Shown in pieces: positions 19,461 to 22,370 of a DNA stretch of 64,000 nucleotides. Position 1 is the stretch's first letter, and every line of letters begins with the position of its first letter. The notes beneath the pieces were generated by a model that was not told the DNA's origin, searched no databases, and saw nothing but the letters and a program-made list of their open reading frames with translations. Source of the stretch: Campylobacteraceae bacterium. GTDB lineage: Bacteria; Campylobacterota; Campylobacteria; Campylobacterales; Sulfurospirillaceae. The DNA lies in NCBI GenBank assembly GCA_027050775.1, contig JALUBH010000025.1, positions 1-64,000 of the forward strand, in the 5' to 3' direction. Both the position numbers and the translations under genes were made by a program.

Positions 19461-20090
19461 TTATTTCCTTGCTCTTAATACTACATTTTTTAGTTCGTCT
19501 ATTTTCTTTTCTACTTCGTAGTCTGCAGGGAAAACTTTCCCACAGATATTTGTATGCAACCAAATACCACTGTCTTCTCTATCTATGACATCAAGTATTT
19601 TATGTTTTTGAGATGGATATTTGTCTATCATGTCGTAGGCAAAGAGCAAGAGAGCATCCCCATCAAATTCATCATAAAATTTGTATGTATCAGAAGCATA
19701 GTGATATATAATGAGTTCATCAAATCTTTTTTTATCGCTAGAGTCCACATATGGATCAAGCATATCAAATTTTTTATAAAAATCATCGCTGTTTACTATC
19801 AAATCTTTCAAAGCCCTCTTTTCACTCATGGGCATAAGTGTAAATTCATCTCCAAAGTTTTTAACAATATCGCCAATTTTAACATCAGTAAAAAGATTCC
19901 TGTCAGCTATTTTTACAGCCGCATTTTTACCGATTGGATAGTCAAAGAACCTGTCTTCTTCTTTTATTATTGCCAACAAATCATCCAAAGTCTTCTCTTC
20001 ATCTATCTTAATGATATGCTTTTTGTAAAAAGGAAGATAGTCGATTTTTGCATCAAATCTAAAAACACTCAACCTAAGCTTGTATGTCAT
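19461..20090 (-). CDS. Conserved hypothetical protein, possibly DUF5644 family
   Basis: A 209-aa cytoplasmic protein with no membrane segments. The N-terminus (YKLRLSVFRFDAKIDYLPFYKKH) followed by KTLDDLLAII recalls the ubiquitin-like/2Fe-2S-type N-terminus of succinate dehydrogenase iron-sulphur subunits, but the cysteines are absent. I believe it matches a Campylobacterota-specific domain (DUF5644), which I cannot confirm. The ATG at 20090 is chosen because AGGAG lies seven bases upstream, although the frame extends to 20108. It is translationally coupled to the HdrB-like gene and divergent from truD. Confidence 0.5.
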   Translation of the reverse strand: MTYKLRLSVFRFDAKIDYLPFYKKHIIKIDEEKTLDDLLAIIKEEDRFFDYPIGKNAAVKIADRNLFTDVKIGDIVKNFGDEFTLMPMSEKRALKDLIVNSDDFYKKFDMLDPYVDSSDKKRFDELIIYHYASDTYKFYDEFDGDALLLFAYDMIDKYPSQKHKILDVIDREDSGIWLHTNICGKVFPADYEVEKKIDELKNVVLRARK

Positions 20091-20187
20091 AACGCTTACT
20101 CCTAACATAATTTTCCATTAGTCTACTCTAAAAAAGCTTAAAAAGCATAAAATTGGTATAATACAAAAAAAATATAAGGAATTTAAA

Positions 20188-21282
20188 ATCAAACGATTAT
20201 TTTATCTAAAACATTCACCCATAGATATTCTTTTTACTAAAAATTCTAGTGATTTTGTAGTAAATGAATTACCTTTGTATGAGTTTAGTGCAGAGGGAGA
20301 ACACTTAGTTCTACATGTAAGAAAAAAAGATATGACAACTTGGCAGATGGTACAAGCTCTCAGCGAAGCATGCGGTGCAAAGACGAGAGATTTTGGATAT
20401 GCCGGACTAAAAGATAAAGATGGTATGACAACACAGTATATATCTGTCCATAAAAATTTTGAGAGTAAATTGGAAAATTTTTCGCATGAAAATATCAAAA
20501 TTATCTCAAAAACTTACCATAACAATAAGATAAGAATAGGGCACTTAAAAGGAAACAGATTTTTTATAAGATTAAAACGAGTAAATAAAATAGATGCCCA
20601 AAAACTTCAAAATGCACTTAAGATTTTGGCAAAAGAGGGCTTTCCTAACTTTTTTGGCTATCAACGATTTGGAAGAGATGGAGATAACTATATCTTGGGA
20701 AAAGAGATATTGGAAGGAAAAAGAAGAGAGCGAAAGAGAAAGATGAAAAATTTCTTTATAAGTGCTTATCAGAGCTATCTTTTCAATACTTGGTTATCAA
20801 ATCGCCTAAAAATTGGACATATTTTGGATGGGTTTAATCTCAAAGAGGCTAGTGAGTCTTTGGGCTTTTCAAAAGAGTTAGTCAAAGAGTTAAAAAAACA
20901 GAAGAGATTTTTTAAAATTTTTAAGGGAGATGTGGCACATCATTATCCTGCAGGGAGAGCTTTCATATGTGAAGACCTAGAAGAAGAGCTTGAAAGATTT
21001 GAAAAAGAAGAGATAACGATAACAGGTTGGTTGCCCGGTGGTAGGAGCATGAGATGTGAGGGCTTTGCTAAAGAGTTAGAAGATGAAGTTTGTGATGAGG
21101 CCGAGCCATATCTAAAGCAGATGGACGGTGCTAGAAGATTTGCATGGGTATTTTTAAAAGATGTGGAGTATGAATATAAAGAGGAAGAAAATTGGTTTGA
21201 GATGCATTTTTCCCTGCCAAAAGGCTCCTATGCTACGGTAGTTTTGGAAGAGTTAACTCATAAGCTAAAAGAAATGGTATAA
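20188..21282 (+). CDS. truD: tRNA pseudouridine(13) synthase TruD, apparently starting at ATC
   Basis: Pseudouridine synthase for U13 in tRNA-Glu. Catalytic-region motifs FGYAGLKDKDG, NFFGYQRFGRDG and the C-terminal WLPGGRSM are present. The conserved N-terminal strand reads KRLFYLKHSPIDILFTKNSS and then DFVVNELPLYEF, and continues upstream of the first canonical start (TTG at 20275). No ATG, GTG or TTG exists in frame between the upstream stop (20149-20151) and 20275. An ATC at 20188 has AAGGA seven bases upstream and sits where the family's initiator Met is expected. The length from ATC is 364 aa. An ATG-to-ATC sequence error is the alternative. Confidence 0.88.
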   Translation: MKRLFYLKHSPIDILFTKNSSDFVVNELPLYEFSAEGEHLVLHVRKKDMTTWQMVQALSEACGAKTRDFGYAGLKDKDGMTTQYISVHKNFESKLENFSHENIKIISKTYHNNKIRIGHLKGNRFFIRLKRVNKIDAQKLQNALKILAKEGFPNFFGYQRFGRDGDNYILGKEILEGKRRERKRKMKNFFISAYQSYLFNTWLSNRLKIGHILDGFNLKEASESLGFSKELVKELKKQKRFFKIFKGDVAHHYPAGRAFICEDLEEELERFEKEEITITGWLPGGRSMRCEGFAKELEDEVCDEAEPYLKQMDGARRFAWVFLKDVEYEYKEEENWFEMHFSLPKGSYATVVLEELTHKLKEMV

Positions 21283-21283
21283 T
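21278..21283 (+). promoter_or_regulatory. rnpB: -10 element TATAAT for rnpB inside the truD 3' end
   Basis: A perfect TATAAT preceded by GG overlaps the last codon and stop of truD and lies seven bases before the first nucleotide of the predicted RNase P RNA. Confidence 0.7.
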
Positions 21284-21290
21284 TTCATCT

Positions 21291-21630
21291 AAAGGTACGA
21301 TGAGTGATTGCTTGAGTTTTTTAAAAATTTAAGAGGAAAGTCCGGGCTGCATTGAAGCGTGGTTCCGTCTAACGGACGGCTGGGGCAACCCAAGGGATAG
21401 TGCAACAGAGAGAAGACTTCCTTAGCGAGAAATTTGCTAAGGTAAAGGTGAAACGGCGGGGCAAGAGCCCACCAGGGTTTAGAGTAATCTAAACTGCTTT
21501 GTAAACCCAACCTGCAGCAAGAATGGATTGGTTTTGCTTCATATTTTGACCATTCGCTAGAGTGTTATCGTAAGATAACAAGTAGATAAATAATCACTCG
21601 CGACAGAACCCGGCTTATAGTCGTACCTTT
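21291..21630 (+). ncRNA. rnpB: RNase P RNA (bacterial type A)
   Basis: Catalytic RNA that matures tRNA 5' ends. Terminal helix P1 is AAAGGTACGA at 21291-21300 paired with TCGTACCTTT at 21621-21630. Conserved segments are in order: GAGGAAAGTCCGGGC, the ACAGAGAGAAGAC block, GGTAAAGGTGAAACGG, GGGGCAAGAGCCCACC (which pairs with the tRNA 3' end region) and ACAGAACCCGGCTTA. The length is about 340 nt. The 3' end coincides with the stop codon of the convergent methyltransferase gene, leaving no separate terminator. This explains the gene-free stretch of about 350 bp. Confidence 0.96.
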
Positions 21631-22370
21631 TACCAGACTATTAAATCCATCTTATTTATGGTTTGCTCCCTTATGTTGCCATCCTCATCTCTTAACGATT
21701 CTAGAATCTTTTTAATCTTCTTCGTGTCCGGTTCTAATCCTCTTACATTTAAGTGCCAGGTGTAGTTTTCTACTGCTTCTTTGAAACTTCTTATCTTTAT
21801 CTTTAGCTCTTCAAAGTTTTCGAGTTGATATTTTATATCCTCAGTTTGAAGCCATTTTTTAACTCTTTTTGCACCATTTGGCGGAGTATATACGGAATTA
21901 TGAGCTAAAAAAAGGTCATCTAAAATCGTGTTATCTCTCACTCCTGCCCATCCTAGATATATCTTTATACTAGCACTTGAATGAAATTTTTCTAACTCTT
22001 TTTCTGATTTCACGGCAGGACTCATGGTACACAGAGCTATGTCATAAATTCTGTTTTTCATATCAAAATCGCTCCATGTTGTATGGTGTGTTTTGATATT
22101 TTCTATACCTAAATCAAGGGCATCATCCCTTAAAATTTGGAGCATATTTTGTGAAAAGTCAAGCCCGTCAACACTTTTGGCAACCTTTGCAACCCTGATG
22201 GTATATACTCCGGTACCACATCCCACATCAAGTATAGTTTTGTCTTCGAAACTGATACCCATCTTTTTCACAGCCTCAAGCACATTTGCTTCAAAACTGT
22301 TTTTACATGGTGAGTATCTGGCATAATTTTTTGCTTTTTCATCCCATTTGTTTGTCTTTTTGTTATTCAT
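21630..22370 (-). CDS. Class I SAM-dependent methyltransferase, substrate unknown
   Basis: A 246-aa Rossmann-fold methyltransferase. Motif I is ILDVGCGTGVYTIRVA, followed by VDGLDFSQNML (motif II) and IALCTMSPAV (motif IV). The C-terminal 100 residues do not match a methyltransferase subclass I recognise. Its ATG overlaps the stop of the DMT transporter gene by 4 bp, so the pair is co-transcribed, which may mean the transporter moves a substrate or product. Its stop codon meets the 3' end of rnpB. Confidence 0.8.
   Translation of the reverse strand: MNNKKTNKWDEKAKNYARYSPCKNSFEANVLEAVKKMGISFEDKTILDVGCGTGVYTIRVAKVAKSVDGLDFSQNMLQILRDDALDLGIENIKTHHTTWSDFDMKNRIYDIALCTMSPAVKSEKELEKFHSSASIKIYLGWAGVRDNTILDDLFLAHNSVYTPPNGAKRVKKWLQTEDIKYQLENFEELKIKIRSFKEAVENYTWHLNVRGLEPDTKKIKKILESLRDEDGNIREQTINKMDLIVW

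Follow-up and report, generated by a model that had tools for sequence, protein, structure and literature searches.

A very likely AUC start of truD in a Campylobacteraceae bacterium, and apparent AUH starts of ftsK in Campylobacterales

Among bacterial genes with an AUH initiation codon (AUU, AUC or AUA) is pcnB of E. coli, which reportedly starts with AUU. For infC, the gene of initiation factor IF3, the start is described as ATT in E. coli and as ATC in Streptomyces (PMC5472188), and as AUA with an extended Shine-Dalgarno (SD) sequence in S. aureus (PMC13009471). In the latter organism AUA is the start of ccpN and AUU that of cvfC1. For these two genes and citZ, reporters are described as giving about 10% of the AUG level in poor medium, a figure that goes up to 30% for ccpN when the medium is rich (PMC13009471). 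Streptomyces sigR has a GTC start with a regulatory role, and its repression by IF3 was shown by experiment; the non-canonical start is kept in most species examined and was missed by annotation (PMC5472188). Expression from non-canonical starts is reported to go up 3- to 15-fold in IF3 fidelity mutants (PMC5472188). Initiation profiling of C. jejuni was carried out with peak detection at ATG, GTG and TTG, and its main text holds no match for ftsK, ATT or ATC (PMC11955535). How does the truD gene of a Campylobacteraceae bacterium, with ATC at its apparent start, compare with these cases?

The truD frame and its proposed start

The window is the whole stretch of DNA that was analysed, 64,000 nucleotides of contig JALUBH010000025.1 (here C25; assembly GCA_027050775.1) from a relative of Sulfurospirillum. 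The features around truD are as follows.

19461..20108, minus strand, divergent upstream open reading frame of 215 aa, from the ORF list
20119..20121, plus strand, in-frame upstream stop TAG, the frame being open from 20122
20157..20162, plus strand, TATAAT with TGG before it, putative -10 element, found by eye
20175..20180, plus strand, Shine-Dalgarno TAAGGA, 7 nt ahead of ATC
20188..20190, plus strand, ATC, proposed initiation codon of truD, aligned with ATG, TTG or ATC of relatives; no canonical in-frame codon in 20122-20274
20188..21282, plus strand, truD, tRNA pseudouridine(13) synthase, 364 codons plus stop, with proposed start ATC 20188-20190 (NF002154, PF01142)
20275..20277, plus strand, TTG, first canonical in-frame codon (codon 30), not a likely start; no SD, and CTG or CTT in relatives
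21292..21633, plus strand, rnpB, the RNase P RNA gene, directly downstream of truD (Rfam RF00010, 267.2 bits)

The truD product is the sole TruD match in the genome. It scores 540.5 bits against NCBIfam NF002154, above the curated cutoff of 469, and 226.7 against Pfam PF01142, where the cutoff is 27. The NF002154 match begins one residue ahead of the ATC codon, so the N-terminal stretch is TruD sequence. The gene ends with TAA at 21280-21282. At its other end the original prediction had placed an in-frame stop at 20149-20151, but the codon there is AAA; the TAA at 20148-20150 belongs to another frame, and the real stop is the TAG at 20119-20121. The misplaced stop leaves the conclusion of an ATC start unchanged. 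The open frame indeed has no ATG, GTG or TTG ahead of the TTG at 20275, as had been stated, and that TTG lies 29 codons past the ATC. The claim of AAGGA at ideal spacing is likewise correct, in that the 7-nt gap between TAAGGA and ATC is a productive one.

The TATAAT at 20157..20162, presumably of the extended -10 type in view of the preceding TGG, would make the leader about 20 nt long. A promoter scan of the window did not have this TATAAT among the elements it listed, and the pattern TGnTATAAT is also present 5' of the ATC in all three of the other ATC species described below (L004, L010 and L016). The neighbouring upstream frame is divergent, and truD is therefore probably the first gene of its transcription unit. 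Folding of 63 nt around the start leaves the SD open (-2.8 kcal/mol); in an 88-nt fold GGAAUUU, whose GGA belongs to the SD, pairs weakly with a stretch inside truD (-5.5 kcal/mol).

At the other end of the gene, a TATAAT seen by eye (window 21270-21300) overlaps the stop of truD and the codon before it, immediately 5' of rnpB, which suggests that rnpB has its own promoter. Could rnpB downstream, with strong transcription set against weak translation, be the cause of the ATC? This was considered and dropped. The rnpB gene is present in 9 of the 11 sources scanned, and it does not explain the ATC, because it occurs with ATG or TTG truD genes and is missing from L003 and L016.

Are the codons between ATC and TTG translated? 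Pooled over all pairs of the eight genus sequences, pS is 0.630 and pN 0.091 for codons 2-29, and 0.703 and 0.113, respectively, for codons 30-280. Purifying selection acts on codons 2-29 as it does on the remainder of truD. The other two frames of this stretch carry a stop in 15 of 16 cases. The original prediction that conserved TruD sequence continues 29 codons upstream of the first canonical start thus agrees with both the selection and the extent of the NF002154 match. The same two observations bear on the notion that translation starts at the TTG at 20275 and that the 29 codons before it are untranslated. This TTG is the first canonical codon in frame, but the codons that it would leave out are selected and lie inside the TruD profile match, none of the SD motifs scanned for was found before it, and the three other ATC species have CTG, CTT and CTT in its place. 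A start at TTG 20275 is extremely unlikely. Nor do the ATC species share a canonical alternative, since the first downstream canonical codon differs in each (codon 30 in the window, 28 in G003, 14 in G008 and 24 in G001).

The start codon of truD in relatives

Relatives of truD are encoded at 124 loci, and the best 80 of these were aligned at the start. Among these best 80, a canonical ATG or TTG occupies the place equivalent to the ATC in 76 named loci: ATG in 71 and TTG in five (L002 and L024-L027). Three have ATC (L004, L010 and L016), and in one (L040) the alignment is misplaced, with TTG one codon before. The ATC had been said to sit at the expected methionine, and the codon at 20188 is where the homologues' ATG aligns in the 71 loci.

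A genus search covered 10 genomes, of which eight have truD and two gave no truD match. The eight genes begin at the same alignment position, with ATC in G000 (the present genome), G001, G003 and G008, ATG in G005, G006 and G009, and TTG in G002. From -40 to +880 G001, G003 and G008 do not differ from L016, L004 and L010, respectively, so the independent ATC count is four genomes. Half of the genus genomes with truD have ATG or TTG, and ATC is therefore not required.

It may be asked if ATC is an ATG altered by an error of sequencing or assembly. The three named ATC records, L004, L010 and L016, are MAG records and not isolates, and relatives carry ATG at the codon. The names of these records, however, point to different samples, and ATC is found in four species, the other three having TruD proteins 82.5% (L010), 84.8% (L016) and 91.7% (L004) identical to that of the window and different flanking bases. 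A comparison of close strains had been proposed as a check, and it shows that three further species of the genus have ATC at this position. Given these three genomes, it is very unlikely that an error produced the ATC and that a corrected read would give ATG.

Another thought is that the N-terminus comes from a different non-canonical codon, or by frameshift from an upstream ATG. An ATG adjoins the -10 box in L002, L003, L010 and L016; in G001 it is in frame, 8 codons upstream of the ATC, and abuts a TATAAT box. L010 (G008) has a second ATC two codons upstream. But the window and G003 are without ATG in the leader, and the SD spacing suits the ATC at 20188. In L010 an in-frame TAA lies only three codons upstream, with GGA ATC ACT between this stop and the start ATC, and the earlier ATC abuts the SD. 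Little credence can be given to such an origin of the N-terminus.

It is very likely that truD is translated from AUC at 20188, because ATC recurs across species, codons 2-29 are selected and no downstream canonical codon is common to these genes. The presence of the codon in four of eight genus genomes, the ATG or TTG at this place in the others and the position of the SD are also grounds for this reading. The short leader would set UAAGGA 7 nt 5' of the AUC, and the initiator tRNA (CAU) would pair with the A and U and be mismatched at the C in the third position. The step that we infer is initiation at AUC in the cell; the TruD protein would then begin with formyl-methionine. AUC is expected to be weaker than AUG, and hence to limit TruD, and may be subject to IF3 discrimination. 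The original prediction of low and possibly IF3-sensitive expression can be derived from what has been published about other non-canonical starts. On that footing it is rather probable that the AUC start lowers the TruD level and depends on IF3.

How did the truD start codons come to alternate? In a tree of concatenated TruD, IF3 and FtsK sequences, G000 joins G003 (support 53) and then G008 (63), and G001 stands apart, beside G006 (80). The supports are too weak to choose between two histories: ATC may have arisen twice from ATG, with TTG arising once, or ATC may have arisen once in the clade without G009, to be followed by ATG twice and TTG once.

Apparent AUH starts elsewhere in the genome and in the order

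An AUH start on infC, the classical partner in IF3 self-regulation, was not encountered in the 10 genus genomes (loci L111-L120); in all 10 the apparent start of infC is a TTG preceded by GAGGT, and self-regulation of IF3 via an AUH start is thus not evident. Thirty loci examined for tRNA genes gave 36 matches, three of them with a CAT anticodon. One of the three shows the marks of an initiator, namely a mismatch of C1 with A72 and an anticodon stem with three G-C pairs. With infC apparently at TTG and an initiator tRNA that looks normal, there is no support for tracing the ATC to something unusual in either.

A census of AUH starts set 457 kb of the present genome (the 80 kb of C25 that contain the window and a number of further stretches) against 800 kb of G009, a relative with a complete genome. 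A first pass gave mostly artefacts from antisense and overlapping genes; with stricter filters 162 ortholog pairs were kept, 71 on C25, 76 on contig C7 and 15 elsewhere. Clear AUH starts among the 162 pairs number three, in a census that compares two genomes of one genus and that misses genes having an AUH start and a canonical codon nearby. These are truD (ATC here, ATG in G009) and, with ATT in each of the two genomes, ftsK and a gene for an amino-acid ABC permease; all are on C25.

Several other candidates were set aside. At C7:68829 the ATC of G009 sits directly before ATG, at C7:10890 the ATH codon is internal, and at C20:179112 ATG in G000 corresponds to ATA adjoining ATG in G009; these were judged ordinary. 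At C7:32730 both genomes have ATT, but TTG (G000) and ATG (G009) one codon apart fit equally, and the case is ambiguous. From this point onward (plus strand; L182:12730) there is similar sequence 5' of the first canonical start in both genomes, and the ATT stands behind a GAGG-type SD.

The ABC permease gene appears to start with ATT at C25:71429-71431 on the minus strand (L186:7429-7431), outside the window. By eye, 17 of the 18 loci L221-L238 have an ATT, ATC or ATA start with no canonical codon after the upstream stop; L226 has ATG two codons earlier. The SD seems, also by eye, to overlap the stop of the preceding gene, so translational coupling is possible. With ftsK (AUU) and this gene (AUU/AUC) sharing the arrangement, AUH starts are, to judge from the sequences, a stable feature of the lineage and not a single accident.

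The ftsK gene extends the picture beyond the genus. Here it appears to start with the ATT at C25:74907 (plus strand; L186:10907-10909, outside the window), which stands behind AAAGGA; the ATG 5 codons upstream of it has no SD. A set of 85 ftsK loci was assembled from 45 gathered first and 40 genomes chosen from 91 to cover families. Left out were L203 and L280 (N-terminus outside the locus), second fragments of one gene, and loci from genomes that the set already contained; in G017 and G007 the matches were partial and gave no usable locus. Starts were called by a mechanical rule that sets SD-preceded ATT, ATC or ATA against a canonical codon within 7 codons. By this rule 46 of the 85 have an SD-preceded AUH codon and no canonical codon within 7 codons, and 10 more have an AUH codon with SD and a nearby canonical codon without one, which makes 56 of 85. 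The remainder consists of canonical codons with SD (15), both kinds (5), canonical codons without SD (4) and no call (5); among the last, at least L335 and L337 look by eye like ATC and ATT, respectively. ATT accounts for 36 of the 56 AUH codons, ATC for 11 and ATA for nine, the last codon being taken when several fit; in some loci two adjacent ATH codons are indistinguishable.

The aligned place can be taken as the ftsK start, because 13 of the 15 SD-bearing canonical codons lie there or at the next codon. Some loci leave almost no other choice, as between the preceding stop and the ATT there is only CAG in L282 and only GCT in L217. Families with AUH (under anonymous labels) are f1, f2, f4, f7, f9-f14, f16, f18, f19, f20 and f22, and AUH is also found in the named records Sulfurospirillum cavolei and a Sulfuricurvum. 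The AUH start is not universal. Family f14 is canonical or without call in 8 of 10 loci, and the f17, f15, f3 and f6 loci together with three named Sulfurimonas are canonical or, in two cases, have both kinds.

It can tentatively be proposed that Campylobacterales hold a small set of genes under AUH codons over long evolutionary times, with ftsK as the core and truD as a recent recruit in part of the genus. The AUU, AUC or AUA of ftsK would then go back to an early stage of the order and have given way to canonical codons in some families. If true, chromosome segregation and tRNA modification would be tied to initiation fidelity, through the level or activity of IF3.

Comparison with known systems

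Among the papers listed in searches of the open-access literature, none reports an AUH start of truD or of ftsK in its title or the opening of its abstract. AUH starts are known as a kind; within the scope of these searches truD is a new member, and the alternation of ATC, ATG and TTG within one genus is new. The widespread AUH start of ftsK is also new within the same reach, and is more surprising than that of truD. It raises the question of why a cell-division gene stays on a weak codon. Start callers confined to ATG, GTG and TTG would misplace the truD start in this genome and the ftsK start in many others of the order. Sister species with a natural AUC, an ATG or a TTG at one and the same start also offer a ready comparative test of the effect of weak codons.

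In so far as the cited sources describe them, the known systems resemble truD in different ways. infC shares an AUH start with truD but is a different gene, and infC of this genus itself appears to start at TTG. Closer are pcnB, cvfC1 and ccpN, which are ordinary non-IF3 genes with AUH; truD has AUC, and in part of the genus only. The start of sigR is non-canonical too, but with G in the first position, and that of truD is known here from sequence.
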